Shown here: positions 1 through 32,479 of the stretch, in pieces
Position numbering within the stretch: position 1 is the stretch's first letter
How the letters are laid out: each line of letters starts with the position of its first letter
NCBI GenBank assembly: GCA_019359615.1
Contig: JAHHHA010000002.1
Coordinates: forward strand, 1 to 64,000
Reading direction: 5' to 3'
Length of the DNA: 64,000 nt
Source: Cyanosarcina radialis HA8281-LM2
GTDB lineage: Bacteria > Cyanobacteriota > Cyanobacteriia > Cyanobacteriales > CCAP-1448
Notes under the pieces: model-generated
What the model saw: only the letters and a program-made list of their open reading frames with translations
Database searches by the model: none
Told to the model about the DNA's origin: nothing
Program-made: the position numbers and the translations under genes

Positions 1-118
1 TGGTCGCGATTGGGTTTTCGGCGGCTCATAAAGATACCTAAAAGCTGAAATATTCTCCTAGTCTGAGTTTCGCCTGTTTTGTTTACCTCCTTGACAAATC
101 CTAGTTTTTCTTAACTTG

Positions 119-364
119 TCACGAATGTTCTTTAATCAACTTCGGGAAGCCAACCCAAGCAATCGGTTGTTCGGCGACGGGTTCGGTGGTTTCAGTTTGG
201 GTGGGATTGTAAAACTGATTTTTCCCTTGACCTAGAGTTGCTTCAAGTCCTTGGATTTCCTCATCAAAGCTAGAAGAAATAAACTCGTTCCATCCCGCTC
301 TTTGATTGGGAATTGAGTCGAAATCATCGATGTTTGCAGGTGGGTCGAATTGTGGCAATTTCAT
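119..364 (-). CDS. small acidic protein of unknown function
   Basis: An 81-residue protein that I do not recognise. It is rich in Asp, Glu, Asn and Gln, has no membrane segment or signal peptide, and ends in a short hydrophobic patch (AWVGFPKLI) followed by a charged tail. It is the last gene seen of the minus-strand series that begins with the haloperoxidase gene, 142 bases after the protease-nuclease stop codon, with a 57-bp repeat in between. A purine-rich stretch lies just upstream of the ATG. Its size and position would fit a chaperone, immunity or accessory peptide for its neighbours or for a gene left of the window, but the sequence does not show this. Confidence 0.55.
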   Translation of the reverse strand: MKLPQFDPPANIDDFDSIPNQRAGWNEFISSSFDEEIQGLEATLGQGKNQFYNPTQTETTEPVAEQPIAWVGFPKLIKEHS

Positions 365-438
365 GAATTTTTTTCCTTTTAATTTGTGAATGTCATGTGG
401 GATTTACACAGATCTGGTTCTCGTACTCGCTTAATCCA

Positions 439-495
439 GCCCTCACCCCGCCTCCGGCACCCCTCTCCCACGGGAGAGGGGCTGGGGGTGAGGGC
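439..495. repeat. 57-bp palindromic repeat, copy 1
   Basis: A 57-bp element starting GCCCTCACCCC and ending GGGTGAGGGC, with an inner stem CCCCTCTCCC/GGGAGAGGGG. A nearly identical copy in the opposite orientation lies at 4651-4707. It separates the small acidic gene from the protease-nuclease gene and can fold into a strong hairpin, so it may also act as a transcription barrier. Confidence 0.8.
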
Positions 496-506
496 AACCA
501 TGCTAA

Positions 507-2339
507 TCACCCCAAAATCTCCTTAACTGAGGAAATGCGGCGAATTTTCTCCTGTTTGGCGATTGCTGCGGTTTCGCGTCCCGCTCGACTGCCAGGTGGT
601 AGCGATAGCCCGGTCATTTGACCGATCGTGGAGAGAGGAACTTCGTAAACCGAAAATTCAGGCAGTTGGAGGATTTCCAGTCGATCGAGCAAATCGGCTT
701 GGGTGAGGACGTACCCTTTGACTTCGATCGCAGCGTTTCCCGTTTCCCGAAAATAGATGGTTTTCCAAAACTGCTGGGGAAGCTGAATGCCGCGATAAAC
801 CGGATCGCTCTCTGAGAAGATCGGCCCGCCCATCACAGCAATTCTTAAATTCTCCACATCGACATCAGCAAAAATGGCATCTTCCAACGCTCCCCAAATC
901 CCGCTGGCGGACGACTGATTGAAGGCTTCGTGCTGCGGGGTAATGTTGGTAAAAAAGAACGAGTCGGTATTGGCTTTCCGGGCTTCCGATAAAGGGCCCC
1001 ACAGCAGATCGGCACGTCGGGCAATGTGTCCGCGATCGAGGGGATTGTTTCTGTAAATCTCGTCGCCGACTTGTGCGTCATTAGGCAGTCTCGGATCTTT
1101 TTTAAACTTGATGCCGCTACGATTTAAGCGTTGCAGCGAGCCGCCATCAACGTTCCAAGCTACCCAGCGGGCAAAGCGGCGCGATCGACTCATGGCTAGA
1201 GAGAAGTGCATATAATCGATCGCTTGAACCCCTCCAACTTCCAAAAGATCGTCTTCGACTTCATCGGTTGCGGCTTTGGGTTTGGGAATCGACGCGCCCA
1301 GAAAATTCTCTGCATAACCTATGCCCGCAGCCTGTTCTCGCAGGATTTCTAAGGTTTTTGTCGGGCTGATATTCAACTTCTTAAATACCGATTCGGCGTA
1401 GCAAGCCAGAGCGTGTTCGGGTTGGTCGCCTACTTCTCCAGCAAAATGCAGCCCCAGCATCATATCTGTAATCTCGTCCCCATCGACGAACATCCAAACC
1501 GAGCCTGAGTCTCCTGGCATACTAATTTCTTCATTTAGTGCGGGATGCTCTGGATCGGGGCCGATTTCAAAGCCGCCAATATCCCTCGGACCTACTTCAT
1601 AGTTGATGCGGGCGGTAACGTGGATGCGCTGCACTATCCCGTAAGTTACATCTGTGGTTCTACCTGATTTAACTACTCGATCGCCCAGTTCGGCTTCGCC
1701 AATGCGGGAGACAATGGTGTTGAGGTCGAAGATTTCGGGAGCGAGTTTGCGGTTATCGATTGAAGCGATGGCGCAATCTCCAGCGACTCCTAAATGGCTG
1801 CGTACCAGTTTCCCGACGATGTTGCGATCGACCCGATTATCGTCGTAGGAACCGGGCTGGACGATCGCATCGCCGATTTCCCCATTTCCCCCGTGGAGAA
1901 CGTGCCAGTTTGACAAAATTAAGGTAGCGCCATTACTAGCGTCATAAACCACGCATCCTAGAGTACCCGCAGAGATGCTGGTATGTCCGATGCTGACACC
2001 GGGGACGATCGGATCGATCGCCATCTTTCGTTTGGAAACTGTTTCGGGTTTGACTTCTTTGGCGCTGAGATCGTAACTTCTTTGGATAACGTCGGTAGGA
2101 ACTTCTACACCATCGATCGTGAAGGATTTGGGAATTTCTACCGAACCAATGCTTTGAATATCTTCTGGCGCTACTTTGCGATCGACTGTAAATTGAACGC
2201 TCAATTCTTTAGTGGGCTTACCATCTTTGATTTTGTAGCCAATTCCAACTGAGGTAATATTTTCTCGATCTAAAAAGCGAGAAGCTTCTTTACGAACAAA
2301 GTTTTTCAGAGTTTCAGTCGAGAGTGATTTTTTAGCCAT
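507..2339 (-). CDS. trypsin-like serine protease fused to DNA/RNA non-specific endonuclease
   Basis: A 610-residue two-domain protein. The N-terminal half is a bacterial trypsin-fold protease: the His in SNWHVL (His146), an Asp in GDCAIA (Asp188) and the Ser in PGDSGS (Ser278) are in the right order for a catalytic triad. The C-terminal half (about 375-585) is a NUC-family beta-beta-alpha metal nuclease: DRGHIARR (435-442) gives the general-base His438, and the following TNITPQ...FN stretch supplies the metal-binding Asn. Both active sites look intact. No signal peptide or membrane segment is visible, so any export would need a non-Sec route. The gene sits downstream of the phenoloxidase-like gene on the same strand. 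It could be a self-processing toxin, a damage-response enzyme or a protease that activates a neighbour; the fusion and motifs are seen, the role is inferred. Confidence 0.88.
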   Translation of the reverse strand: MAKKSLSTETLKNFVRKEASRFLDRENITSVGIGYKIKDGKPTKELSVQFTVDRKVAPEDIQSIGSVEIPKSFTIDGVEVPTDVIQRSYDLSAKEVKPETVSKRKMAIDPIVPGVSIGHTSISAGTLGCVVYDASNGATLILSNWHVLHGGNGEIGDAIVQPGSYDDNRVDRNIVGKLVRSHLGVAGDCAIASIDNRKLAPEIFDLNTIVSRIGEAELGDRVVKSGRTTDVTYGIVQRIHVTARINYEVGPRDIGGFEIGPDPEHPALNEEISMPGDSGSVWMFVDGDEITDMMLGLHFAGEVGDQPEHALACYAESVFKKLNISPTKTLEILREQAAGIGYAENFLGASIPKPKAATDEVEDDLLEVGGVQAIDYMHFSLAMSRSRRFARWVAWNVDGGSLQRLNRSGIKFKKDPRLPNDAQVGDEIYRNNPLDRGHIARRADLLWGPLSEARKANTDSFFFTNITPQHEAFNQSSASGIWGALEDAIFADVDVENLRIAVMGGPIFSESDPVYRGIQLPQQFWKTIYFRETGNAAIEVKGYVLTQADLLDRLEILQLPEFSVYEVPLSTIGQMTGLSLPPGSRAGRETAAIAKQEKIRRISSVKEILG

Positions 2340-2376
2340 AAATTTGTTGCCTGTAAGAGTTTGGATTTTTTATTAA

Positions 2377-2480
2377 AAACCACAGATGAACACAGATAAA
2401 CACAGATGTAGATTAGATTTTGTAGGTTGGGTTGTAGGCGTAGCCTTCCCGTAGGGTACGGAGTGAAACCCAACAGCCCA
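2377..2480. repeat. composite repeat: ACAGAT tandem unit and GTTGGGTTTC family
   Basis: Bases 2377-2408 hold a tandem ACAGAT(G/A)(A)ACAC unit that recurs at about 60800-60826. Bases 2426-2480 hold an inverted GTAGGTTGGGTT...AACCCAAC repeat that also occurs at 21030-21062, 52894-52933 and 63219-63265. Both are intergenic dispersed repeats. Confidence 0.6.
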
Positions 2481-2509
2481 ACCATCAATCCTCTGCCGAA
2501 CAAATTAAT

Positions 2510-4582
2510 TCACAATCGAGGATCTTTCTCGTACCATTTAACCGATATATCCTTGAAAGCCATATTTTGATTAGCTGCGATCGTCTCAGAAATCGGCAGA
2601 GCTAGGGTGTTGTTGAAAGGTCGATCGAAAGGATAGCCCATCGGTCTTTTATCGGGATAGCGATCGATCGCCCCACAAAAACTCAGGGAACCGCAACAGC
2701 CATCGGGGCCTACTTTATCTAGTTCCCAATCTGTCAGCACGATCGCTAATCGGAAGGGCATACCTTCTTTATTACCTCTGGGCAGCAACAGATGATACGG
2801 CCAGCCACAAGTACAGTAGTTAGATTCATCATTCCCGTTAGTATTGGCGTTGCCGTCATCATCAGATGTCGAGTCTGGCTCTTTGAGGATAAGTTCTGGT
2901 TCCATTTGCACTGGTTTGCGATTTATAGTTGAGTCGCTGCCGCGTCGAGCAATGACGGCTTTTTCTAAAGGTTGAAGTTCGTAGAGAAACTTATCCATTT
3001 CGAGCCACAAGCGGCGATCTTCTGCCCAAGTTTGATTTTCATTTCCTTCCGCATTGGGCATTTTGGTATTAGGAACCATGAAGATCCTCACCGTCACGGT
3101 TTGATGTCGCTTCAGCAGGTTTTCAACTCGAATGAAATAAACAAACTCGCGATGTACTAAATGTTCGATCGGAGCTTGAGTGCCGTCGAATAATTTGACC
3201 TGACGCTGAATTAACCAGGTTTGCAATTCGTCAGTATTGAAATCGAGTTGTGCTGGATCGTCATTCCAATGTTCCCCGCCTAAAGTGCTACTAGCAAACT
3301 GTTGGAGATCGAAGTTTGGTTGTCCGTAACCGGGTAAGCGATCGCTAAAACTGAGAATAATATCTGACGACTTAGCTGTTATCCCATCAAAACTTTTGCG
3401 AATTTTGGCGTAAGGGCGATCGAGAAAATCATACGATGGTTGTTTTTCCTGCAATTGCCAGTACAAGTTATCGACTTGTTTGTGCCACTGGAAAAAGATC
3501 GGATCGCGAATGGCAGCCGCTGTATCGTACATTACCCCTGGCTTATTGGTGTCGGAAAGATCTTCATCCGGCTGATTGATTTGGGCAATGAGTACGTGTC
3601 CCATGCCGTGATAGTTGCCGTAAAAAGACCGAAAAGAACGCGGTGGGGTGACAGTGCCAATAGTAGATTCAATTGTTCCCCCTAGCTTATCGGCGGTGAC
3701 GACTTCTGGAGATGCCGTATTCTCAAAATTACCGCTATCGATCGCAGTATTCAGTCTTTGTCGTCTGAGTTCGTGATCGTCGAGGGTGTAGCTAAAAGTA
3801 TCTGACAGCAGGCTTTGCAACCGCTTCCCAGCATCTCGCTTAGAAAAACCCGTCAGGAAGTTGATAGTTGAAAGTTCGTTCGGATCGTAGCCTTGTCGCA
3901 ACAAAGCCATATCGCGCGGTAGGGGGATAACTCTTTCTAATCCCTGCGCCAAGCGTTCGGCATCGTAACGCGCCAACATCTGTTGGTGCATATAGAAGAA
4001 CAATTCGCCCTGACGATCTTTGGTTTTGCTGCCGCCTCTGCCGTCGGGAATGCCGCTGGTAGGGTAGACGATATGCCAGTGTTCGTGATGTTCGTTGGCA
4101 AAGGGATCTTCTCGAAACCACTCTAAGCCGTCTGGGGGAATGGCGCGGCCTTTACCCCTAGTGCCAGTTTGTTCGTCAACTATGGGAGCGATCTTATCTG
4201 GTTGTCTGAGGAGTAGCGGGGGAATTGCGTCTGTTAGCAATTTACCTTGAGGGTGATGGGTGATAAAAACCATCAAGGCATAGTCTACTAAATCGGGATT
4301 TTCTATTTCTTTTTGACGTTGGTACTCGTTGAGAACTGCTTCTAATTTATCGGCGATCGCTTCATTCGGTCGTGCCATGATTTGCATGAAGCGATCGACT
4401 ATTTGCATGGCCCGATCTACGTGTTCGGGAATGAAGGTGGAGAAAAACTTAATTGCTGGCTTAGTCGCTTTCTCCATGGGCGATCTTGCCTCTACGGTTT
4501 GGAAGAATTGCTGCAATTGGGGCTGGGTTGGTGCGATTAATGCTCCCCAGGTTCGGTTTTTTAGTTCTTTGAGATTGGCCAT
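2510..4582 (-). CDS. arthropod-type hemocyanin/prophenoloxidase homologue (type-3 copper protein)
   Basis: A 690-residue protein with the three-domain layout of arthropod hemocyanins and prophenoloxidases. An alpha-helical N domain (about 1-145) is followed by the copper domain: CuA site His166 and His170 in HHEHWHIVYP and His199 in GELFFYMHQQMLARYDAER; CuB site His325 and His329 in YHGMGHV and His367 in RDPIFFQWH. All six copper ligands are present with spacing like that of Limulus hemocyanin. The C-terminal Ig-like domain carries the family blocks VRIFMVP, CTCGWPYHLLLPRG and YPDKRPMGYPFDRP. Known members carry O2 or oxidise phenols to quinones. There is no signal peptide, as in arthropod prophenoloxidases. 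It lies in a minus-strand series with a haloperoxidase, a ferritin-like protein and a serine protease. Oxidase activity rather than O2 transport is the likelier role, by inference. Confidence 0.9.
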   Translation of the reverse strand: MANLKELKNRTWGALIAPTQPQLQQFFQTVEARSPMEKATKPAIKFFSTFIPEHVDRAMQIVDRFMQIMARPNEAIADKLEAVLNEYQRQKEIENPDLVDYALMVFITHHPQGKLLTDAIPPLLLRQPDKIAPIVDEQTGTRGKGRAIPPDGLEWFREDPFANEHHEHWHIVYPTSGIPDGRGGSKTKDRQGELFFYMHQQMLARYDAERLAQGLERVIPLPRDMALLRQGYDPNELSTINFLTGFSKRDAGKRLQSLLSDTFSYTLDDHELRRQRLNTAIDSGNFENTASPEVVTADKLGGTIESTIGTVTPPRSFRSFYGNYHGMGHVLIAQINQPDEDLSDTNKPGVMYDTAAAIRDPIFFQWHKQVDNLYWQLQEKQPSYDFLDRPYAKIRKSFDGITAKSSDIILSFSDRLPGYGQPNFDLQQFASSTLGGEHWNDDPAQLDFNTDELQTWLIQRQVKLFDGTQAPIEHLVHREFVYFIRVENLLKRHQTVTVRIFMVPNTKMPNAEGNENQTWAEDRRLWLEMDKFLYELQPLEKAVIARRGSDSTINRKPVQMEPELILKEPDSTSDDDGNANTNGNDESNYCTCGWPYHLLLPRGNKEGMPFRLAIVLTDWELDKVGPDGCCGSLSFCGAIDRYPDKRPMGYPFDRPFNNTLALPISETIAANQNMAFKDISVKWYEKDPRL

Positions 4583-4650
4583 GATAAGTTGTTGAATTCG
4601 ATTTAGAAAATGGATTGTTATAAGCGATCGTCTTTTACCAACAGCCTCTT

Positions 4651-4707
4651 GCCCTCACCCCCAGCCCCTCTCCCACGGGAGAGGGGTGCCGGAGGCGGGG
4701 TGAGGGC
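4651..4707. repeat. 57-bp palindromic repeat, copy 2 (inverted)
   Basis: Reverse complement of the element at 439-495, differing only at the centre of the inner stem. It lies between the BNR-propeller gene and the phenoloxidase-like gene. With copy 1 it brackets two genes. Confidence 0.8.
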
Positions 4708-4711
4708 TGGA

Positions 4712-6034
4712 TTATGTCTGCAATCGAATCACTCGACTTTCGGCATTACCATCTACAGTTATTCTGTAAATAAAGATTCCGGCTGGTAATGTTTCTCCAG
4801 CATCGTTTTTACCGTCCCAGACGATCGATCGCTCCCCAGCAGCAGGATTGCTTTCATCGACTAGTTGCCGGACGTAACTACCAAATCGATCCCAAATATC
4901 GATCGCTACTTTTTTGACATTCTCTGGTAACTTGTATTCGATTTTCACCGATTTCTCAAACTTTGCTGGGGCGTTAGTAGTGAGAAATTTTAAAGGTGTA
5001 ACCGTCTCAATTACAGGGGTGGTTACTGGTGCAGTCGAATACTTATAAACGGTTTTACCCGAAGCATAGCCGACTGTTACGGGATTGCCAAAGAATCGAA
5101 AACGATTGATAAATTGACCGATTTCATTGGCATCTTGCCAATTTTTACCGCCGTCTTTGGTGGCACTGCTAAAACCGCCTTCAAAGTTGGCATCTCCCCA
5201 GCCGCCAACCCAACCTTGTTTCTCATCGATAAATCCGATGCCTTCAAGGTTGGCATTTTTTTGCGGATCGTTAATAGGAAATCGCGTCCAAGTTTTGCCC
5301 CCATCTGTGGTTTTGAGAATTGCCCCTTGATTGAAGTTTTCTAGGGAAACAAAACCGATATTCTCATTAAGAAACTGAATTTTCCAACCCCATTCTCCGA
5401 TAGGAAAAGCATCGCTCATATCGGCGACTCGATTTACCCAAGTTTTTCCTCCGTCTTCTGTATAGAGGACCACGGGAATCAGATCGTCGCGCGTGGGATT
5501 AGCAATACTTGGATCGGCTTTACCGCCAACCACCCAGCCACAACGATCGTTAATGAAATAGTTATCGATTAAGTTGGAGGCATATGCGCTCATATCCCAC
5601 GCCGTCCAAGTTGCACCGCCATCAACTGTTTTCATCATCCCAGGAGGGCGATCGGCGTAGTTAGTTCCAGAACCGTAAACCACCGATTCATTGACGACAC
5701 AAAGACCACAAATTGCTGATGGAGCCAGTTCGGGCAGAATATTATCGATTAACTGCCAATTTTGACCGCCATCAGTAGTAGAATACAGGCGTTTTCCCTC
5801 TGTTAAAGTTCCCGCCCATCCTTTTAACTCATTAGCAAAACCAACGCACCGCAAGTAAATACTATCTTGAAATTGTTGTTCCCAAGTATTACCGCCATCG
5901 GTAGTTTTGATAATTTGACCGTTGCTATTAACTGCCCAACCTACCATCGGATCGATAAACCAAATATCGTCAGTTCTCGAACTAGCTATAGGAGCATTTG
6001 TGGGAAACCATTGCAAATTTGTAGAATTTGTCAT
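4712..6034 (-). CDS. BNR/Ycf48-type beta-propeller protein with FlgD-like C-terminal domain
   Basis: A 440-residue protein with six clear Asp-box units of the form T-x-DGG-x-(T/N)W (TTDGGNTW, TTDGGQNW, TVDGGATW, TEDGGKTW, TTDGGKTW, TKDGGKNW), which predict a six- or seven-bladed propeller over residues 1-330. After a Thr/Pro-rich linker, residues about 360-440 match the FlgD Ig-like fold: IDIWDRFGSYVRQL, WDGKNDAGETLPAGIFIYRI. No signal peptide is seen, whereas most Ycf48 proteins are secreted lipoproteins. Such propellers usually bind proteins or glycans, and FlgD-type tails often act as sorting or docking modules. It sits between the ferritin-like and copper-protein genes on the same strand, which suggests a scaffold or targeting role for the enzymes; that role is inference. 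Confidence 0.8.
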   Translation of the reverse strand: MTNSTNLQWFPTNAPIASSRTDDIWFIDPMVGWAVNSNGQIIKTTDGGNTWEQQFQDSIYLRCVGFANELKGWAGTLTEGKRLYSTTDGGQNWQLIDNILPELAPSAICGLCVVNESVVYGSGTNYADRPPGMMKTVDGGATWTAWDMSAYASNLIDNYFINDRCGWVVGGKADPSIANPTRDDLIPVVLYTEDGGKTWVNRVADMSDAFPIGEWGWKIQFLNENIGFVSLENFNQGAILKTTDGGKTWTRFPINDPQKNANLEGIGFIDEKQGWVGGWGDANFEGGFSSATKDGGKNWQDANEIGQFINRFRFFGNPVTVGYASGKTVYKYSTAPVTTPVIETVTPLKFLTTNAPAKFEKSVKIEYKLPENVKKVAIDIWDRFGSYVRQLVDESNPAAGERSIVWDGKNDAGETLPAGIFIYRITVDGNAESRVIRLQT

Positions 6035-6164
6035 CGTTAATATTTCCTTTTGCTTGTAAATCGAAGATTAGGATTAATACCAAACCTAATTAAAACGCTC
6101 TTTTTTCTTTAGTCTGCGCAGGCAGACTTTGTTTGTGTAGCAGCGAATTCATTCGCCCATATCC

Positions 6165-7682
6165 TCATTGGGGAAAGTTATTATCTTTCCACTGCTCGAA
6201 CGAGCTAATTCTTGCTTCCGTCCAAGGCCCTTCTGGAAGTAAAGGCATAGACTTGGAGGATACCGAACCTAAAATTGTCTCAGCATTATTCTTCACCGTT
6301 TCGTAATCGCTAAGATTCACAGGAAATCTCGGTTGCGATTTCATATGATCGATATCCATTGGTGAGAATAATTGAGAGATTCCCTGCATCCAAGTTCCCG
6401 GACTTGGTTCGAGAGAAATTGTATAAGCTATATTTTTCAACGCTGCCGATACTTCAGTTAAGGACGATCGCAACTGTGAATATGGTTGAGTTCTAGAATC
6501 GTCAATCAGCGCGTCGCAGGCTTGGTAAATTTCTTGCAGCCTCTCTTGAAAAAAGATCCAAGCACTGCTCATTTGCGGTAGCAATTGAACGTCGGCATAA
6601 ACTTCAAAACTCGGCCCGGCATTTATCCCAGGAAAACCTTCGCCTGCTGGTAATTGAGTTATCGCTTTAGCTAAAGGAGAAACGCCAAAAGGCATCAGAT
6701 TGATAAACGCACTTTTGAGAACGTACATCTGCTCTTCATTCTCTTCCGTATGGGCAAAGAAACGCAGGAGAATTTGCAACATCACCTCATAGAGAGCCAC
6801 GAAGATCTCGATCGCATCTCGACTCAAGGAATCGGTAATGATGTTGGCCCCAGGAGTCGTATTATCTTGTTGAAGGCTTAAGAGAGGATTTTCAATGACT
6901 GGACGAGCGGGTTGAAAATTAGGATCGCTCTGTAATTCAGCCAAATACTCTTCCCTAATTTTGGTAAATTTAGCAAAATGACTGTCATCTCTTTGTGCGG
7001 GAGAACCTTCGCCTTGGACGACAATTAGCTCGATCGCCTTTACTGCTGATTCTAAGTCTTTAACTTGAATCATCTGCCTAAAAATCCCAGTGGCTTGAGC
7101 TTCCGGCGGCCCGATAAACAGTTTTTGTCCGATAGTTTCAAAGCCTTGGCGGATGAGTCCGTAGAGTTCTCCAATGGTGTTATACTCAATTTTTCTCGGC
7201 ACTAATGGTTGCGGCAGCAACGCCATAATTCTGAGCAATTCTTCGTCCCTAATTTGCTGACAAAACTGAATCCAATTGTCTTTTTGTTCCTCAGTGTCAA
7301 AGTTATTGGGCAATTCAAAACAAATATAGCGATTCAGCGTAGTTTCACTGAAAGGAGCTAATTTGAATTGCAGCTTTAAAGAGGTGTAGGTTTTAGCTTG
7401 GGGAAAATTTGCCCGACGGAAATAGGGCGCTCCTCCTATAGATGTCAGCAGATTGCTGGCCAATGCTAGATGCAGCATTTCCTCGACAGCAATGCCGTTA
7501 ATTGTCCGCCGCCACCGATTAATCTTGGTTAATTGAGCTTGAGAAACTCCTTCGTCTGTAGATTCTTTCAAACTGAAAGCAGTAAAAAGATACTGACAAG
7601 CCAGGGAATGTTCTAATTCTGCGGCTTGGGACAAAAGGTAAAGTAAATCTTCTCTAGTTTTGACTCGATTGTTTGTACTCAT
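6165..7682 (-). CDS. ferritin-like domain protein (VioB/RebD iminophenyl-pyruvate dimer synthase type)
   Basis: A 505-residue protein whose first 230 residues match the ferritin-like domain found in VioB and RebD: AAELEHSLACQYLFTAF near residues 17-35 and GIAVEEMLHLALASNLL near 63-79 supply Glu and His ligands typical of a four-helix di-iron or heme-associated fold, followed by GGAPYFRR. The C-terminal half is mostly helical and shows no further motif that I recognise. In violacein and rebeccamycin biosynthesis the family couples two imines made by an amino-acid oxidase; no such oxidase is in this window. The start is ATG with a modest purine-rich leader. It lies between the haloperoxidase and propeller genes on the same strand. 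The fold assignment is good; the substrate is unknown. Confidence 0.78.
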   Translation of the reverse strand: MSTNNRVKTREDLLYLLSQAAELEHSLACQYLFTAFSLKESTDEGVSQAQLTKINRWRRTINGIAVEEMLHLALASNLLTSIGGAPYFRRANFPQAKTYTSLKLQFKLAPFSETTLNRYICFELPNNFDTEEQKDNWIQFCQQIRDEELLRIMALLPQPLVPRKIEYNTIGELYGLIRQGFETIGQKLFIGPPEAQATGIFRQMIQVKDLESAVKAIELIVVQGEGSPAQRDDSHFAKFTKIREEYLAELQSDPNFQPARPVIENPLLSLQQDNTTPGANIITDSLSRDAIEIFVALYEVMLQILLRFFAHTEENEEQMYVLKSAFINLMPFGVSPLAKAITQLPAGEGFPGINAGPSFEVYADVQLLPQMSSAWIFFQERLQEIYQACDALIDDSRTQPYSQLRSSLTEVSAALKNIAYTISLEPSPGTWMQGISQLFSPMDIDHMKSQPRFPVNLSDYETVKNNAETILGSVSSKSMPLLPEGPWTEARISSFEQWKDNNFPQ

Positions 7683-7732
7683 AACAATACTCTTGTTTCC
7701 TAAAGAGGACTAAACTTCGATCGCCAGTCGGT

Positions 7733-7840
7733 TAATGAAGGTTAAGAATTAAATTCGGTAATTGTGGGGTGGGACTCTTGTGGGATAGCCCTCTGGGCTG
7801 TCCCACAAGAATTACCCAATTATTTTTTTAACTTCCATAA
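7733..7840. repeat. MITE-like element R2, copy a
   Basis: About 108 bp, running from TAATGAAGGTTAAGAATTAA to ATTTTTTTAACTTCCAT around a core hairpin (7777-7809) of the form CTTGTGGGATAGCC...GGCTGTCCCACAAG. Full or near-full copies occur at 27202-27312 (inverted), 50150-50226 and 59931-60056, and core-only versions near 16772, 17228, 19191, 54275 and 60868. No transposase is linked. Confidence 0.75.
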
Positions 7841-7937
7841 ACCGACTTTAGCTATGAGCCAGGGATTTGAATCCCTGGCGGACTGTCGGGGCGGACTAGA
7901 TGGCAATAAAATCACCTCACCACCAACCTGTAGAACT

Positions 7938-9278
7938 TTATTGGAAAGCGGCGCAAACTTTGCGGGCTACAGCTTTACCAACTGTCTCGCCGCCAGTAGC
8001 GTCGAATATCCAATGCACGCCCAGATAAACGCGACTGATTTTGTTTTGTTCTATAGCTTCTTGCAAAGTAAAAGTCGCTTCCCACCTCGGACGAGCAACG
8101 CCCATGTTATCTGTGGTCTGGCCGTTAAATTCGTCGGAAACAAACGTCACTGAGATCTCTTGAGGTGTCTTGCCCAAAAGCGCCGCTGCGACCTCAAAAC
8201 AGGCCGAACCAAATGTGGCGTGCCCCGATGGATAAGCTGGGAAATTGGGAGTAAAGTTGCTGCCAGATCCCCCGAAAGTAGGAGCGGGAAAAGGGTTGCT
8301 CTTGGGGGCACCCAATGGCAGCCAGAAGGGATCGCCTTGTCTGGCTCGCAGATTATTGCCATCGCCTTGCCCGGTGGGGCCCCAACCTGCATCGGCTTCG
8401 CGAACTCCCAGCACTGGCCGCCAGAAGTCGTAGGCGTATTTCCAATGCCAAGAGGCAATTCCGGCATCAGCCATGGAAACGTTAATGGCAGTCAAGATTT
8501 TAATCTGTTGGGCGTGAGAGGCCGATTGAAACTCAGGGATAGCCAGTACCACCTGGTTGTAAAGACGCGGTGGCGTTCCGAGTTGGTTAGCGCCATCGTA
8601 ACCCCAATAAATCCCGATCGCAGCTTTATAACGATAATCTGGATCGCGCTCGACGATATCGCTCTTGCCGCATTCGATTACTTGGTCGAAAGCCAAGGCA
8701 TACTCGTCGCTATTTAAAGGTGGTGGCGGCTCTAGAGGTGCATCGGCGACAACGCTATTCAGCGTAAAAGGCTTAACTTGCCCCCAAGTACGGCCGAGAG
8801 TTGGTTGGTTCGGACTAAGAGGATCGGGACGGTGGCGACCGGGATCTTGACTGTAGTTCCGATCTAGATCTGGGGCGCTAGAACCATCGTTATTGCGGTA
8901 ATCGATCCAAGCATCTCCCACTTGCTTGCCGTAATTGAAGGCATCAGAATTAATTCCCACCGTCAGCAGGGCAGTTTCCGTGGAGATAAATTGCACGAAG
9001 TCGGGATAAAGCTGTTCTGCCGCAAAGATTCCAGCCCCCAATAGAGCAGCAGTCCCCGTCGCTTCGTCATTGCCAATAGTCGCAGGCGGATTTGGTAGGC
9101 TTCCCAATTGCGGATTCAGCAGCCCTGTAACCTTGGCATAAGCATCGTGGGCGGCCAGGTGAATAATTGCTAACGCCCTAGAAGTTTTAGTGGGACCAGC
9201 ATTGTTGGGTTGATGGCCGTCACTAAAATCTCTAGCCACTAGTTTTAGGGCTAGGTCGTTAATCTTTAAGATACTCAT
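7938..9278 (-). CDS. vanadium-dependent haloperoxidase (PAP2 fold)
   Basis: A 446-residue protein carrying the whole vanadate-binding signature of the haloperoxidase branch of the PAP2 family: Lys280 and Arg287 in WKYAYDFWRPV, Ser351-Gly352-His353 in YPSGHATFGSAC, and Arg416 with His422 in SRVYLGVHWIFDATGG. Family enzymes use H2O2 to oxidise halides to hypohalous acids, or halogenate organics. There is no signal peptide. It is the first gene of the minus-strand series that runs on to the ferritin-like, propeller, copper-protein and protease-nuclease genes, although an R2 element separates it from the next. PAP2 phosphatases share part of the signature, but the length and the Lys-x6-Arg spacing favour the haloperoxidase type. 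Confidence 0.88.
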   Translation of the reverse strand: MSILKINDLALKLVARDFSDGHQPNNAGPTKTSRALAIIHLAAHDAYAKVTGLLNPQLGSLPNPPATIGNDEATGTAALLGAGIFAAEQLYPDFVQFISTETALLTVGINSDAFNYGKQVGDAWIDYRNNDGSSAPDLDRNYSQDPGRHRPDPLSPNQPTLGRTWGQVKPFTLNSVVADAPLEPPPPLNSDEYALAFDQVIECGKSDIVERDPDYRYKAAIGIYWGYDGANQLGTPPRLYNQVVLAIPEFQSASHAQQIKILTAINVSMADAGIASWHWKYAYDFWRPVLGVREADAGWGPTGQGDGNNLRARQGDPFWLPLGAPKSNPFPAPTFGGSGSNFTPNFPAYPSGHATFGSACFEVAAALLGKTPQEISVTFVSDEFNGQTTDNMGVARPRWEATFTLQEAIEQNKISRVYLGVHWIFDATGGETVGKAVARKVCAAFQ

Positions 9279-9950
9279 TGCAATTCTCCAAATTTGAAAA
9301 TTCCGATGTGCCTTTTTTGCTTGGTGTTAATATTCAGCGGCAGGCCAAACTAGATGACTAAACTTAATTTCAGTCACACACAAATCAGCGCATGAAGTTA
9401 CCTTCAGTCGCGATCGCTAAATCCCATCGCCGCTTTGAAATCGGACACCAAAAATTCCCTGACAAAAGACTTTGGGCGAAGACCAGTTAATGCCAGATCG
9501 CCAATCGATTAGCAGGCTTCTTCAAACGTTCGATCGAACAGCCATCCCTACTAAATACTTGTTGATTAGGATTAATCCTGAAATTGCTTACCCCTGATAC
9601 TAGGTTAGCCTCTCGATCGAGTAATGTCAGTGATAAAAAGTGGCAAAAAGTTGCTAATTTCTGAAATTACCAAAGCAGGAACCAGATAATAAGGCACAAA
9701 GAACAGTTTTCCTGCTTCCCATTCTCTATCTAGAAGTAAGGAAACCCCACTGCTACGAGTTACATATTTTAGGCAAAGTCCCCTCTCCCCATCACCCCAT
9801 CACCCCATCATCCCCTCTCCCCCTCTCCCCCTCTCCCCAAATCGATCGACTTTCGTTAAAAATCTTAATGAAAACACTCATCAAATCGGTTTAATGTAAC
9901 GATTTAGTAGTGTTTCTGCACGCCTAGAAACAAAACATAGGGAATTTAAC
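9279..9950. other. 672-bp divergent intergenic region
   Basis: This lies between the haloperoxidase (left, minus) and heme oxygenase (right, plus) and must carry both promoters. Bases 9781-9838 form a low-complexity C/T tract built of CATCACCC and CCTCTCCC units. I see no RNA gene or supported small ORF in it. Confidence 0.5.
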
Positions 9951-10664
9951 ATGAGCGGTAATTTAGCAACTAAGTTACGTGAGGGGACAAAAAAATCCCA
10001 CACAATGGCAGAAAATGTTGGTTTTGTCAAGTGTTTTTTAAAAGGAGTTGTTGAGAAAACCTCTTATCGGAAGCTAGTCGCCAATCTCTATTTCGTCTAC
10101 ACCGCTATGGAAGAAGAGATGGCCAAGCATCGGCAGCATCCAATTGTTTCCCAGATTTATTTCCCCGAACTCGATCGCAAAGCCAGCCTAGAAGAAGATT
10201 TGTACTACTACTACGGCAGCAATTGGCGGGAACAAGTTGCGCCCTCAGCCGCAGGTAAAGCTTACGTCGAAAGAATTCGGGAAGTATCGGCTAACGCTCC
10301 AGAACTGTTAGTCGCTCACTCCTACACCCGTTACTTGGGAGACTTATCTGGCGGGCAAATCCTTAAAGGAATCGCTCAACGGGCTATGAATTTGACCGAC
10401 GGCGGTACGGCTTTCTACGAATTCCCAGATATTGCTGACGAAAAGGCTTTCAAAGCCAAATATCGTCAGACCATGAACGATCTGCCAGTGGATGAAGCTA
10501 CAGTCGATCGAATTGTAGACGAAGCCAACGATGCTTTTGGCATGAACATGAAGCTGTTTATGGAATTAGAGGGCAACCTGATTAAAGCGATCGGTCAAAT
10601 GCTCTTTAACACCCTAACCCGTCGCCGGACAACTGGCAGCACCGAACTGGCAACGGCCGAGTAA
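9951..10664 (+). CDS. ho1: heme oxygenase (biliverdin-producing)
   Basis: A 237-residue protein matching cyanobacterial HO-1 over its whole length. The proximal heme ligand is His17 in TKKSHTMAENV, and the distal helix carries GDLSGGQ with its flexible Gly residues, preceded by LLVAHSYTRYL. It opens heme at the alpha-meso carbon using ferredoxin electrons to give biliverdin, CO and Fe(II); biliverdin feeds phycobilin and phytochrome chromophore synthesis. A short purine stretch precedes the ATG. The gene stands alone: the upstream gene is divergent and cobW follows after 141 bp. Either the constitutive or the low-oxygen paralogue is possible; the sequence alone does not decide this. Confidence 0.95.
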   Translation: MSGNLATKLREGTKKSHTMAENVGFVKCFLKGVVEKTSYRKLVANLYFVYTAMEEEMAKHRQHPIVSQIYFPELDRKASLEEDLYYYYGSNWREQVAPSAAGKAYVERIREVSANAPELLVAHSYTRYLGDLSGGQILKGIAQRAMNLTDGGTAFYEFPDIADEKAFKAKYRQTMNDLPVDEATVDRIVDEANDAFGMNMKLFMELEGNLIKAIGQMLFNTLTRRRTTGSTELATAE

Positions 10665-12072: not shown

Positions 12073-13422
12073 TTACAGTTTGATTTTCTGCCAACTCTTC
12101 ACAGCCCCAATTTTGTATCTAGAATTTGAGTTCATAACATCAGACAGGCTAGAAAGATCGTCGGGAACCGATATACCAGCAGTACCAGGATTTAACTGGT
12201 TAATGTCTTCAGCCCAAACCACGCCATCAATGTTGCTGCTGCCAGCACTCGGACAACCATCTCCTGAACCTTCAATGTGTACGTCCGACCTAGCATCGTA
12301 AATAAAAGCCGTCTCAATGCAGGAACTGTCGTAAAGGAAGACTTCTTCAAAGTCTTGCTCGCCCAAAATTAACCGCAAGTCTCCTACCCTCGGTGGCTGA
12401 CCGTCACTGCGAACGTTGCGAATTTTAGAAGTTCCTCTCAGGGTAATATCGTCACCGACGTAGATATAAACAGGGCCATTGGTAGTGTTGAAATCTAATG
12501 TTTTATTGTTGTCAAGGTTAATCTTTTTGGCTTTATAGTATTTGATGCCACCACTGGTATTACCATAATTGCCACCATTATTGACATCTCCTAAATCCTC
12601 CGCCCCAGAGGGAGAAATGTAAGACAAACCTGGGTCAAACGTACAAGCAACTATTTTTCCAGAAATGTTATCAGTTCCGGTGCTGATAGCATTGAAATAT
12701 TGGGAGCGGTTAGCCTCTCCAGGGGCAGCAGAGCCAGTTAAACTCTGATTTTTAGACCAAGTGCGGTTGTAGTAAACGTTGCCATTTTTGCCCAGAACGG
12801 GCCGTCCCTTCAGATCGAAATAGTCGGTGTCTCCCATCGACATCACCCCAGGGAAATCGCTGCCAGTAGAATCGAGGGAGACGGTAACGGCCACATAAGC
12901 ATTGGCAAAAGTTGTTTGTCTGCCTTCAACTACAAAAGTGGCAGTCTTATCGGCACTGTTGTAGCGGTAGGCTAGCAGGGTATAAGTACCATCAGTGCCA
13001 ACAGTCCCGCTGTAGCTGATACTAGGAGTACCCGTAACGGTGGCAGCAGCGCAAGGCGACGCACCAGCAGTTGGATTGGCCCACTGATTGACGGTGCTAC
13101 TTTCTTCATCGCCATTGTTAGGGACACCATCTGAACCGAGAAAGGTTTTGTTCGTCTCTGGATTAATCGGATCGTAGTTCAGGGACAACAAAATAGCATT
13201 ATTGGCTTCAGTCAGTTGAGCTAAAGTTCTGGCAACACCAGCTTCGGCTATAGCTAAACTATTGCTAGAGCGCGATCGACCGATGGAAATAGCTTGACTT
13301 TGCATCGATCTGGCGATCAGCAACGCCCCAATCATCAAGATCACTAATCCCATGCCCATCGCCACCGGAAGGCTGAAACCAGAATCGCTCTTACCAGCTT
13401 TTTCGATCGAGGATAACGACAT
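12073..13422 (-). CDS. HpsA-like pseudopilin, paralogue 3
   Basis: A 449-residue protein with a short polar leader ending in Gly15, then FSLPVAMGMGLVILMIGALLIA, the class III signal and hydrophobic helix of type IV pilin-like proteins, and the block IAEAGVARTLAQLT also seen in cyanobacterial HpsA proteins. The large remainder is rich in Gly, Ser, Thr and Asn with paired Cys and probable beta structure. HpsA-type pseudopilins take part in hormogonium polysaccharide secretion and gliding; by analogy this acts in the periplasm or outside after PilD-type cleavage. It is the last of three tandem paralogues. Whether it works in motility, adhesion or secretion is not shown by the sequence. Confidence 0.75.
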   Translation of the reverse strand: MSLSSIEKAGKSDSGFSLPVAMGMGLVILMIGALLIARSMQSQAISIGRSRSSNSLAIAEAGVARTLAQLTEANNAILLSLNYDPINPETNKTFLGSDGVPNNGDEESSTVNQWANPTAGASPCAAATVTGTPSISYSGTVGTDGTYTLLAYRYNSADKTATFVVEGRQTTFANAYVAVTVSLDSTGSDFPGVMSMGDTDYFDLKGRPVLGKNGNVYYNRTWSKNQSLTGSAAPGEANRSQYFNAISTGTDNISGKIVACTFDPGLSYISPSGAEDLGDVNNGGNYGNTSGGIKYYKAKKINLDNNKTLDFNTTNGPVYIYVGDDITLRGTSKIRNVRSDGQPPRVGDLRLILGEQDFEEVFLYDSSCIETAFIYDARSDVHIEGSGDGCPSAGSSNIDGVVWAEDINQLNPGTAGISVPDDLSSLSDVMNSNSRYKIGAVKSWQKIKL

Positions 13423-13559
13423 ATAACATTTTTTTCTCCCAATTACAGCTTAACGCTTAGTACCGAGTATTTTTGCTGACCGCACTTAATTTATTTTCTA
13501 AATTGTAAAACTCGGCACTCTACAACTGTTTGCGTTCCCAACTTTTAACCGCTTGTGAC

Positions 13560-15143
13560 TCATAGTTTTAGCCTCTGCCAATTTTTAATCGACCCCATTT
13601 TGTATCGCACCGGCCAGTCGAGATATCCCAGCAGATCGACCAGACTGGTGACATCATCGGGCACAGCAATACCAGAAGTCACCCCTGGCGTAATGGTGGT
13701 GTCGTAGTCATTACCTGAATATCCACCGAGATAGTTGACATCCCGATTGCTAGCGGCATTCTTAGCGCTGAGAATTGCTTCCACCCAGACCACACCTTCA
13801 AAGTTCGTATTCTTCCCACTCGGACAACCCGGCCCTGAAGTTAAGAGCCTGAGTTCGTCTATATACATCCAGAGGAAGGCATTTTGAATGCAGGTTTGGT
13901 CGTAGAGTATGACTCTGGTGTTGCCTTGGTTATTGTTAGGATCGCTCTCGGACATAATACGTAAATCGCCGACTCGCGGCGTTTGGCCGTCGGTGCGAAT
14001 ATTGAGGATTTTGGCTGTATCCCGTAAGGTAATGGTTGGCAGTCCAGGGCCAGAAACGGGCACGCTGGGAACCAGGTTGATGTAAACCGGACCGTTGGTA
14101 GTATCGACTGTTAGCGTGTCGTTATCGGCCAGATGGATCTCTTCAATCCGATAAACTGTCGGAACGTTGCCCCCTAGCCCCTCTATCTTTTGGCTGGTGG
14201 TAATAACTCCCAAATTCGTTGTTGGAACTGGGAGAGGAATTTGGGGATTGAGCCTGCAAGCAAAAATCTTTCCTTGGACTGCATCTCCACTGGCATCGTC
14301 ATCATCATCGTCATCGTCATCATCATCATCATCGCCATAGTCTTGAGTAAAAGAAGAGAAAATAGCGTTTAAGTAGCTAGGACGAGTGGCATCCCCTGGT
14401 GCAGAACTTCCAGTTAAGGACGGCTCTGGCGAACTGCTAGGGGGAAAGTAGACATTCCCCTTGCTGCCCAATATTTGCCGCCCCCGTAATGCCAGTAAGC
14501 CAGTTTTCCAAGTAGGAGCGCTATTAGCTGGGTCGGTGAGGATAATCCCAGGAAAGTCATCTACAACAGGGTTAACGGGAAATGTCACTAATATTAGCCC
14601 AGAGGACCCGCTGCTATCGTTGCCCTCGACCAACAGGATGCCTAATTGTTGGGTTCGATCGTAACGGTAGGCTCTGAGAGTATAGTAGGAGCCATCTGTA
14701 CCGATGGTTCCTGTAAGGGAGACGCTAGGCGGGCCCCATCCTTTTTGTTGAAAGCAGGGCTGGCCGCTAGGATTGTACCCCGTCCACTCATCGACGGTGG
14801 CACTCTCTTCATCCCCATTATTGAGAATGCCATCGGGGCCGAGATAGGTTTTGCCCGTTTTGGGGTTAATCGGGTCGTAGTTGCGGGCCAGCAACACGGT
14901 ATTATCGAGTTTGGTCAGTTGGGCTAAAGTTCTGGCAATACCGCCTTCAGCTATAGCTAAACTATTACTAGATCGCGATCGACCGATGGCAATGGCTTGA
15001 CTTTGCATCGATCTGGCAATTAGCAGAGCACCTATCATCAAGATGACTAATCCCATGCCCATGGCTACTGGGAGACTAAAGCCCGAATCGCTGCGATCGA
15101 GTTTAGTAACAGAGAATAATGTCATCCCTTGCGTTCCCTCCAT
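13560..15143 (-). CDS. HpsA-like pseudopilin, paralogue 2, with poly-Asp tract
   Basis: A 527-residue paralogue of the genes on either side, sharing GFSLPVAMGMGLVILMIG and the AEGGIARTLAQLT block. It begins only 3 bases after the stop of the upstream paralogue, so translation may be coupled; an ATG six codons on (15125) is an alternative start. A run of 13 Asp encoded by GAT/GAC triplets (about 14293-14337) lies in a loop region and is absent from the two sisters. Such a tract may bind Ca2+ or be a slipping microsatellite. Function is inferred from the family only: a PilD-processed pseudopilin of the HpsA type. Confidence 0.75.
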   Translation of the reverse strand: MEGTQGMTLFSVTKLDRSDSGFSLPVAMGMGLVILMIGALLIARSMQSQAIAIGRSRSSNSLAIAEGGIARTLAQLTKLDNTVLLARNYDPINPKTGKTYLGPDGILNNGDEESATVDEWTGYNPSGQPCFQQKGWGPPSVSLTGTIGTDGSYYTLRAYRYDRTQQLGILLVEGNDSSGSSGLILVTFPVNPVVDDFPGIILTDPANSAPTWKTGLLALRGRQILGSKGNVYFPPSSSPEPSLTGSSAPGDATRPSYLNAIFSSFTQDYGDDDDDDDDDDDDDASGDAVQGKIFACRLNPQIPLPVPTTNLGVITTSQKIEGLGGNVPTVYRIEEIHLADNDTLTVDTTNGPVYINLVPSVPVSGPGLPTITLRDTAKILNIRTDGQTPRVGDLRIMSESDPNNNQGNTRVILYDQTCIQNAFLWMYIDELRLLTSGPGCPSGKNTNFEGVVWVEAILSAKNAASNRDVNYLGGYSGNDYDTTITPGVTSGIAVPDDVTSLVDLLGYLDWPVRYKMGSIKNWQRLKL

Positions 15144-15146
15144 TGG

Positions 15147-16520
15147 CTACAATTTCAATCGCTGCCAAGCATTAATAGCCTGAATCTTGTTTTTCGCGGG
15201 CAAGTTGACGCTGTTTAAAACATCCGTCAGGCTAGAAACGTCGTTAGGTAAGGCAATGCCAGAATTAGCGGAGTTGCCATTATTGACAATTTCTTTGACC
15301 CAGACAACTCCATCGATATTGCTGCTACCACTACTGGGACATCCATCTCCCGAACCTTTTAATTGCAGTTGAGCGAGGGGAGCGTAAATAAAAGCAGTTT
15401 GGATGCAGACGGTATCGTTAAGTTCTATATTTTTAGCCGCAGTGACTATTATCCGCAGATCTCCGACTTTTGGGGCAATGCCATCTGTCCGAATGTGGCG
15501 AATTTGAGCCGCATCGTTCATTTTAATGTCGCCGTTAACGTAAAGATAAACTGGACCGTTGGTGGTATCGATATCTAATGTGTCAGTATCATTGATTTCG
15601 ATCTTGTTGGCTTGGTAGTAAGAGATGCTACCACTAGTGCCAGAAATCGCCGTCACCTTATCTTTAATCGTGCCCAGATCCGTTCCTTGAGGAGTGTAAG
15701 GCAGGGTAGGAGTGAGTTTACAAGCGACAATTGTGCCATCGATCGAATCGGCAGTAAAGCCGTTGCTCGGACCAGATTTAACAGCATTAAGATAGTCTGG
15801 GCGATTGGCATCTCCAACTTTGGCCGAACCTGTCAGGCTGGGATTGGTAGAAAATGCCGGATCGTAGTAAACATTGCCATTGCTCCCCAGAATCACGCGC
15901 CCATACAGGTCAATAAGTTCTATAGCTATTACTCCCGGAAAATCGCTAACGGTAGAAGTATTAGAATCGATCGACATAGTGACGGCAATATAAGCAGATG
16001 CCAGAGTTCCTTTTTTGCCTTCGATCAACAAAGTGCCTGTTTTAGTAGCACTGTTGTAGCGGTAGGCTTTGAGCGTATATTGTCCGTCGCTGCCAACTGT
16101 ACCGCTGTAACTGATATTGGGTGTCCCCGAAGAAGTTGCTGAAGCGCACGATGAAGCCGCAGAAGGATTTGCCCACTCATCTACCGCCGTATTTTCTTCA
16201 TCGCCATCGTTAGCAATGCCATCCGCTCCGAGATGGGTTGTGCCCGTTTTTGGGTTGATGGCATCGTAATTGCTCGTCAGCAAGATGCCATTATTAGATT
16301 TAGTCAGTTGAGCTAGCGTTCTGGCCACGCCAGCTTCAGCTATAGCTAGACTGTTGCTAGTTTGCGATCGCCCGATGGAAATGGCTTGACTTTGCATCGA
16401 TCTGGCAATCAGCAACGACCCGACCATCAACAACACCAATCCCGTCCCCATGGCTACTGGGAGACTAAAACCGCGATCGGTTGCATCGAGTTTAAAAGTG
16501 ACTTTTAACTTTCTTTTCAT
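15147..16520 (-). CDS. HpsA-like pseudopilin, paralogue 1
   Basis: First of the three tandem paralogues, about 457 residues from the ATG at 16520. That start is preferred because the upstream GTG (16556) lies inside a dispersed palindrome. The leader is rich in Lys (MKRKLKVTFKLDATDRG) and is followed by FSLPVAMGTGLVLLMVGSLLIA, a class III signal with the pilin-type helix. The body shares the Asn/Gly/Thr-rich beta-type sequence, paired Cys and repeated blocks (DTTNGPVYLYVNGDI, VGDLRII, GDGCPSSGSSNIDGVVW) with its sisters. The recurring last block is also typical of these HpsA-like proteins. The three genes probably form one transcript; a secretion or surface-structure role is inferred. Confidence 0.75.
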   Translation of the reverse strand: MKRKLKVTFKLDATDRGFSLPVAMGTGLVLLMVGSLLIARSMQSQAISIGRSQTSNSLAIAEAGVARTLAQLTKSNNGILLTSNYDAINPKTGTTHLGADGIANDGDEENTAVDEWANPSAASSCASATSSGTPNISYSGTVGSDGQYTLKAYRYNSATKTGTLLIEGKKGTLASAYIAVTMSIDSNTSTVSDFPGVIAIELIDLYGRVILGSNGNVYYDPAFSTNPSLTGSAKVGDANRPDYLNAVKSGPSNGFTADSIDGTIVACKLTPTLPYTPQGTDLGTIKDKVTAISGTSGSISYYQANKIEINDTDTLDIDTTNGPVYLYVNGDIKMNDAAQIRHIRTDGIAPKVGDLRIIVTAAKNIELNDTVCIQTAFIYAPLAQLQLKGSGDGCPSSGSSNIDGVVWVKEIVNNGNSANSGIALPNDVSSLTDVLNSVNLPAKNKIQAINAWQRLKL

Positions 16521-16556
16521 AGAAGATCGAACTAGAGCGCGATACGTGCTCCGCAC

Positions 16557-31774: not shown

Positions 31775-32479
31775 GTGAAAGTGAGTTTATCGAGTGCAAT
31801 CGCTAATTCCCAACTTGAATCTCGACATCAGATGGTCAACCGCAGAGCCATGCAAAAAGGATTTACTGGAATTGTAGCGATCGCTGGGCTGACGTACTTG
31901 CTGTTAATTTCCCAAGCGGCTTATAGAAAACACCTCTTATCGGAAGATCCTACCGGGATGTATGGCACGCAAGCCCTGGTAATGAAAGGAGGCGATCCTT
32001 ACGTGCGAGCGCTGATGCGAACCATCTCGGCCAGCGAAGCCAACGATCGCCAGCCCTATAACATTATCTACGGGGGAGAACGAGTATCCGATCTCAGCCA
32101 GCATCCCGCTCGCTGCGTGACGATTACCGCCGGGCCCAACCGAGGGAACTGCTCGACAGCGGCAGGAAGGTATCAATTCTTAAATCGGACGTGGGCGGAA
32201 AAGTCCAAACGCTATCACCCGCAAATGTCAGATGCGAGCTTGAGTTTTGCCCCCCAATACCAGGATGCGGTGATTTATGCTTGGTTGAGCGATCCTCAAG
32301 CGTGGCGCGGGGAAGACATTCCAGCTTTGCTCAGACAAGGCGAACTCGATCGAGTGTTGCGGTTGCTCTCTCCCACCTGGACGAGTTTGGGTTACGGCAT
32401 TGAAACCAATTCCATGAGCGGAAAATTACCCAGAATTTATCAGCGAGTGTTGCATGAAGAATTGCAAATGGCCAGTTAG
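31775..32479 (+). CDS. membrane-anchored lambda-type lysozyme (GH24/GH104 fold)
   Basis: A 234-residue protein from a GTG start. A single TM helix (about 30-48) anchors it, and the rest is a phage lambda R-like transglycosylase: ISASEANDRQPYNIIYGGERVSDLSQHPAR (catalytic Glu88), AAGRYQFLNRTW, FAPQYQDAVIYAW and SPTWTSLGYG all align to lambda endolysin blocks. It would cut peptidoglycan in the periplasm. No holin, spanin or phage gene is near, so this is a chromosomal muramidase used for wall remodelling rather than lysis. It starts 35 bp after the SDR gene. Confidence 0.85.
   Translation: MKVSLSSAIANSQLESRHQMVNRRAMQKGFTGIVAIAGLTYLLLISQAAYRKHLLSEDPTGMYGTQALVMKGGDPYVRALMRTISASEANDRQPYNIIYGGERVSDLSQHPARCVTITAGPNRGNCSTAAGRYQFLNRTWAEKSKRYHPQMSDASLSFAPQYQDAVIYAWLSDPQAWRGEDIPALLRQGELDRVLRLLSPTWTSLGYGIETNSMSGKLPRIYQRVLHEELQMAS

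Follow-up and report, generated by a model that had tools for sequence, protein, structure and literature searches.

A full-length arthropod-type hemocyanin/prophenoloxidase superfamily protein in a cyanobacterium, from a rare bacterial lineage that often adjoins proteases

A reading frame in the cyanobacterium Cyanosarcina radialis HA8281-LM2 raises the question of what a full-length, arthropod-type hemocyanin or prophenoloxidase (PPO) does in a bacterium, and how its gene came to be there. The frame lies within the first 64,000 nucleotides of contig JAHHHA010000002.1, the stretch of DNA analysed here (the window). Proteins of its kind, the beta-subclass of type-3 copper proteins, are given for eukaryotes only by Aguilera et al. 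2013 (PMC3658974), and a search confined to open-access literature found no report of a bacterial arthropod-type hemocyanin. The first-pass annotation of this DNA had described the family as normally an animal one, a description that needs qualifying, as fungal, amoebozoan, sponge and tunicate members have been published (PMC3658974, PMC6053404). A bacterial lineage with all of the arthropod hallmarks changes where the root of the hemocyanin/prophenoloxidase family may lie.

Identity and fold of the gene product

The gene product is, with near certainty, a full-length protein of the hemocyanin/prophenoloxidase superfamily. The frame is real: the coordinates first assigned to it were recovered exactly, and its strand, absent from that annotation, is minus (Table 1). 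The 690-residue protein matched the Pfam models Hemocyanin_M (E = 1.3e-36) and Hemocyanin_C (E = 4.7e-35), both above cut-off, and the two models were also matched in 14 of 14 homologues; the Pfam Tyrosinase model covered the CuB half only (E = 4e-7). A phmmer search of the PDB returned scorpion AA6 hemocyanin (2e-76), Limulus hemocyanin II (1.8e-75) and Manduca phenoloxidase (5e-72). The AlphaFold model, built from a 14-sequence alignment (pLDDT 74.8, pTM 0.83), had Limulus hemocyanin 1ll1 as its best Foldseek match over nearly the entire chain (E 1.8e-38, TM about 0.7–0.8), followed by PPOs and then by the fungal protein AsqI (E 2.6e-27). The superfamily membership first proposed is thus borne out by Hemocyanin_M and Hemocyanin_C matches far beyond chance, plain tyrosinases being the poorer match, and the C-terminal block singled out in the same annotation, YPDKRPMGYPFDRP, is found in the protein.

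Bacterial alpha-type tyrosinases resemble this protein in their type-3 copper centre, the CuB half of which is what the Pfam Tyrosinase model detects, but they are short, lack the hemocyanin N- and C-domains and are absent from the Foldseek matches; alpha tyrosinases and beta-subclass proteins have only a short CuA/CuB core in common. Pfam and Foldseek rule out a short bacterial tyrosinase, given the length of 690 residues, the Hemocyanin_C match and the presence of an N-domain.

That N-domain escapes Pfam. The profile search suggested by the first-pass annotation returned the M and C models, but Hemocyanin_N was unmatched at E ≤ 1, as it was in every one of the 14 homologues. A helical N-domain is present despite this silence: the profile of the bacterial sequences aligns through the Limulus N-domain from residue 34, the AlphaFold model predicts an all-helical N-terminus, as expected for this domain, and the Foldseek match agrees. 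The three domains originally claimed accordingly stand, M and C by Pfam and N by profile, model and Foldseek, though not N by Pfam. No hydrophobic, signal-like N-terminus was seen in the bacterial hemocyanin-family protein, in which it resembles the cytosolic PPOs. The window protein shows neither an obvious N-terminal propeptide of the PPO type nor an identifiable cleavage site, which counts against proteolytic activation.

Table 1 Features of the hemocyanin-family gene, its product and neighbouring genes
Feature	Position	Strand	Basis or remark
Arthropod-type (beta-subclass) type-3 copper protein, 690 aa	2510..4582	minus	ORF, Pfam, PDB, fold
N-terminal helical domain, residues 1–133	4184..4582	minus	Profile alignment with Limulus N-domain, model helices
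Placeholder Phe50 (Limulus F49, AgPPO8 F99)	4433..4435	minus	Profile alignment
CuA ligands His166, His170 (NEHHEHWH motif)	4073..4087	minus	Alignment
CuA ligand His199	3986..3988	minus	Alignment
Glu305, equivalent of AgPPO8 catalytic Glu364	3668..3670	minus	Alignment; PMC4700666
CuB ligands His325, His329	3596..3610	minus	Alignment
CuB ligand His367	3482..3484	minus	Alignment
C-domain cysteines 590, 592, 630, 636 and YPDKRPMGYPFDRP region	2675..2815	minus	Alignment
Trypsin-like protease fused to Endonuclease_NS/NucA, 610 aa	507..2339	minus	Next downstream of hemocyanin gene, 170 bp gap
YCF48/BNR-repeat protein with FlgD-type Ig domain	4712..6034	minus	Upstream of hemocyanin gene, 129 bp gap
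Ferritin-like (PF12902, VioB-like) protein	6165..7682	minus	Co-directional; putative operon from strand and gaps only
PAP2/vanadium chloroperoxidase-like protein	7938..9278	minus	Co-directional; Pfam
Stand-alone N-domain gene (G278)	L015 8609-9004		
Stand-alone N-domain gene (G387)	L004 6640-7005		
Stand-alone N-domain gene (G680)	L038 10985-11332		
Stand-alone N-domain gene (G680)	L039 8946-9272		

Active site

Residues were compared across 21 sequences, 15 bacterial and 6 arthropod. All six of the copper-binding histidines listed in the first-pass annotation (166, 170, 199, 325, 329 and 367) are invariant throughout (21/21), and so are the equivalents of AgPPO8 Glu364, Phe248 and Phe415 (E305, F195 and F363 in the window protein) and the four C-domain cysteines, whose pairing into two disulfides is carried over from arthropod structures. 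The classification table of PMC3658974 does not attribute two C-domain disulfides to fungal, amoebozoan or tunicate members. The placeholder Phe occurs in all full-length bacterial and arthropod sequences that cover the region, and the AgPPO8 salt-bridge residue Arg244 is not conserved, its place being taken by Gln or His in bacteria and by Lys in chelicerate hemocyanins. In mosquito PPO8, Glu364 has been found by experiment to be required for catalysis (PMC4700666); its equivalent is kept in the window protein, for which oxidase activity is predicted. The likeness to arthropod hemocyanins and PPOs therefore extends to the three-domain fold, the six histidines, the placeholder Phe, the E364 equivalent and the four cysteines, whereas the window protein differs in being bacterial, in its identity of 32–34%, in an N-domain beyond the reach of the Pfam model and in falling outside the arthropod clan.

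The fold has been turned to other chemistry in the fungal hemocyanin-like cyclopenase AsqI, likewise non-animal, which lacks site B (its positions there are His346/Leu350/Tyr387) and uses zinc (PMC6053404). AsqI shows that CuB can be lost from this fold and its function altered, and the bacterial protein might by the same token be a recruited non-oxidase; it keeps both sites, however, with all six histidines and Glu305 invariant, which makes this reading highly improbable and AsqI a poor guide to function here. An AsqI-like loss of CuB was rejected on the six histidines conserved in the 21 sequences.

Distribution and origin

About 15 bacterial homologues were found in six bacterial phyla. When 85,000 genomes were scanned with a strict pattern and plasmids were searched as well, relatives turned up in Chloroflexota, Acidobacteriota, Pseudomonadota, Bacteroidota and Actinomycetota; conjugative plasmids of Rhizobium also carried them. 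In sampled searches, counted without the weak, CuB-only matches of ordinary tyrosinases, the gene was present in 2 of 386 cyanobacteria and 2 of 297 members of the phylum that includes Acidicapsa. For Sphingomonas the figures were 1 of 289 at class level and 2 of 201 within the genus, and for a Chitinophagaceae family 2 of 180. The phage records and viral contigs searched held no hemocyanin-family match, and carriage of the gene by phages or viruses was rejected on this basis.

An unrooted tree, in which fungi, amoebae, sponges and crustaceans are not represented, groups the six arthropod proteins as a single clan (100/100, branch 1.27). The sister of the window protein is the Thermoanaerobaculia (acidobacterial) protein of locus L007 (98/93), and the other cyanobacterial copy (G278) pairs with Acidicapsa (100/100). 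Because both cyanobacterial copies pair with other phyla, the gene has moved between phyla; it is rare in bacteria and horizontally spread.

The first-pass annotation offered two origins, an ancient bacterial branch or a transfer between kingdoms, and proposed a tree to tell them apart. The tree, fungal members not being included, does separate bacterial from arthropod proteins (100/100), and this split, the occurrence in six phyla and the acidobacterial sister make the old bacterial branch likelier than a recent transfer from an animal to the cyanobacterium. A gene newly taken up from an arthropod, or contamination, could be suspected from the solved structures, among which arthropod proteins are the most similar, but the bacterial relatives are closer (identity up to 49–50%, against 32–34% to arthropods) and the arthropods form their separate clan on a long branch. 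The gene has no introns and a native GC content (0.472, against 0.469 for the window), and it lies on a 328-kb contig that also bears typical bacterial genes, heme oxygenase and CobW among them. Tree, GC content and contig lead us to reject this explanation as having a negligible chance of being right. An ancient transfer between bacteria and animals, in either direction, may fit the unrooted tree.

A truncated, apparently decaying gene (L062 8567-9427) in G1035, a member of the window genome's order, encodes 286 residues with the N-domain and CuA half only. In Rhizobium indicum, plasmid pPR12A203 carries the gene broken into two frames (L014 9600-11503), and the near-identical pPR13E04 has it intact. 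At L009 298-522 an in-frame N-terminal extension carries an LIIHHTGSG motif recalling N-acetylmuramoyl amidase fragments, and the true start may be later.

Neighbourhood in the window

The hemocyanin gene is the fourth of five co-directional genes separated by gaps of 129–255 bp, in the order haloperoxidase-like, VioB-like, YCF48/BNR, hemocyanin and trypsin–NucA. The last encodes a fusion with a putative catalytic triad (H146, D188 and S278 of GDSGS) and a nuclease motif (DRGHIARR). Pfam matched Endonuclease_NS (7.5e-40) and, besides this, Trypsin_2 at 0.027 only; owing to that weak score the protease call rests on the triad motifs. H146, D188, GDSGS and the DRGH motif are invariant in 4 trypsin–NucA homologues with 45–53% identity. 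Promoter and terminator scans of window positions 1-10000 were uninformative, their results falling below shuffled expectation.

Kaur et al. 2020 (PMC7159879) predict a conflict system, triggered by proteolysis and directed against invaders, that has trypsin–NucA as its core. The 610-residue fusion joins this defining core, a trypsin-like peptidase and NucA, in one protein, although membership can also be through one operon, and the hemocyanin may belong to the same system. The description of the system names no copper oxidase among its components, and the words tyrosinase, copper and phenol are absent from the text. PADLOC recognised none of the window proteins tested, and the neighbours of the window hemocyanin gene included neither a caspase nor an MBL gene. 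On plasmids of Rhizobium sp. T1473 (L072 4915-7854) and T136 (L074 3915-6854), 48 bp separate a tyrosinase-domain gene from the trypsin–NucA homologue downstream of it, which is the arrangement of the window with another type-3 copper protein.

These neighbours bear on the suggestion that the protein is an O2-binding hemocyanin proper, storing or scavenging oxygen in a cell that makes O2 by photosynthesis. Its closest solved matches are indeed chelicerate hemocyanins and not phenoloxidases. Yet a single subunit gene beside a nuclease–protease would be odd for O2 storage, many homologues occur in non-photosynthetic bacteria and few in cyanobacteria, and chelicerate hemocyanins, once activated, show phenoloxidase activity (cited in PMC4700666), so that we consider an oxygen carrier improbable.

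Elsewhere in the window, three tandem paralogues (12073-16556) are 44–56% identical to one another, the first with a weak DUF7305 match. The sole ARAGORN tRNA call (31977-32068; tRNA-Ala, anticodon CGC, 92 bases) may be spurious, given its odd length for a tRNA-Ala and its overlap with an ORF.

Proteases at other loci

The rare bacterial hemocyanin lineage often adjoins proteases resembling those of bacterial defence. Eight protease matches lie 141–3906 bp from the hemocyanin gene, at 7 of 14 loci, and they fall into unrelated families: trypsin–NucA in the window, caspase at L006, L038 and L039, CHAT at L038, and S8 at L004, L010 and L013. In Hellea (L006) the hemocyanin gene is followed by genes for a caspase, an unknown protein and an MBL protein, with a transposase remnant between the hemocyanin and caspase genes. 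G680 has two hemocyanin copies (L038 and L039), and downstream of each come an N-domain gene and a caspase gene, with CHAT farther downstream at L038; the G680 caspase has an apparent Ig-like C-terminus. In G387 (L004) an N-domain gene is followed by the start of an S8 protease gene at the contig end, and at L010 the S8 protease lies at 3.9 kb. Rhizobium indicum (L013) has the order S8, MBL, hemocyanin, with Shedu within 10 kb. Against LmuA, Avs1a and RTasMBL models the MBL proteins matched strongly at L006 and L013, a likeness to defence nucleases, and more weakly at L069.

Tuck et al. 2025 (PMC12799240) established antiphage activity for MBL nucleases activated by a protease and for caspase (Ig)–nuclease loci; the two bacterial protease–effector pairings work by proteolytic un-gating, and more protease-activated enzymes are predicted there. 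The gene orders of Hellea and G680, and the logic of a protease with a gated effector, resemble these Canu caspase–nuclease and trypsin–MBL systems, but hemocyanin is unmentioned in PMC12799240. The Canu pairing of a caspase with an MBL nuclease is absent from the window locus and present at Hellea L006.

A control of distal flanks (93 ORFs, 144 kb) contained no caspase, CHAT, S8 or trypsin family with two or more members; the tally comprised 25 families only, so that single matches could be hidden and the background is bounded only. The association of protease and hemocyanin genes, noticed post hoc at few loci, is suggestive. Seven of the 14 loci, including the well-supported G278–Acidicapsa pair and the Sphingomonas pair, showed no protease.

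These seven loci are compatible with a quite different function, a metabolic phenol or amine oxidase, free of proteolytic gating, that acts in a biosynthetic or detoxifying cluster with the VioB-like and haloperoxidase proteins, the neighbouring proteases being incidental cargo of variable genomic islands. Those two co-directional genes upstream look metabolic, and AsqI, a relative, acts in biosynthesis (PMC6053404). Near the gene, however, it is different protease families that recur, and the VioB-like and haloperoxidase genes are not conserved beside other copies: a conserved operon of the two was rejected, as other loci lack it and the one further VioB-like gene, that of Hellea, is some 8 kb off. 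Ordinary bacterial tyrosinases function in pigment synthesis. We regard a metabolic oxidase as the main rival reading, a real possibility if not the expected outcome.

Proposed mechanism

Our tentative preference, held short of confidence, is for a latent cytosolic phenoloxidase, gated by its N-domain and activated by a neighbouring protease, that is probably a toxic redox effector and possibly acts in defence. We infer copper content, oxidase activity, latency, proteolytic activation and a defence role as follows. Two coppers would bind O2 as in PPO, with Phe50 of the N-domain plugging the substrate site and Glu305 available to deprotonate a phenol substrate. Damage or infection would be the signal for the trypsin-like half of the downstream fusion to clip the protein or push its N-domain aside, and a quinone-forming activity would be set free alongside the nuclease activity. 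If so, a redox effector would join the list of bacterial immune effectors. The recurrent protease partners offer a testable case for proteolytic activation of a phenoloxidase in bacteria, a textbook immune reaction of arthropods.

Stand-alone N-domains and MerC-like genes

At four loci, the window not among them, a stand-alone N-domain gene (108–131 residues) lies beside the full-length gene (Table 1). All four products have Tyr at the placeholder position (FSxY, against F[ST]xF in the full-length proteins). That of G278 is 60% identical to its full-length neighbour by plain BLAST and the other three are alike, a pattern that suggests two origins. With an N-domain HMM built from a set including them, the four scored E 3e-39 to 2e-24. 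A model of one (pLDDT 85.5) had PPO8 and PPO6 among the top Foldseek rows at non-significant E-values (1.8 and 3.8), for which reason the assignment rests on sequence. They might load copper or act as inhibitors in trans, but this is a guess.

A broader proposal would join these elements into a bacterial prophenoloxidase-type immune module, with a latent, N-domain-gated enzyme, dedicated trypsin, caspase, CHAT or S8 switches, and N-domain proteins as trans regulators or caddies. We hold this to be rather unlikely as a whole. Were it true, the arthropod proPO cascade would have a bacterial counterpart that draws on one and the same family of zymogens and on matching types of protease, and this counterpart might be the source of the animal gene.

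At three loci (L007, from about 4300; L008 11926-12606; L069 10469-11176) the gene directly downstream of the hemocyanin gene is MerC-like, encoding a small membrane protein, possibly a metal transporter, whose MerC match is weak and which carries the motif KCPxCWAAY; as a guess, it might deliver copper. A large SpvB/TcdB-middle-domain RHS-type protein is encoded on the opposite strand at L008 2126-9469, adjoining the hemocyanin gene. Near the hemocyanin genes of a cyanobacterium (L015 8060-8494) and an acidobacterium (L010 8958-9566) there is a small protein without known family, 53% identical between the two.
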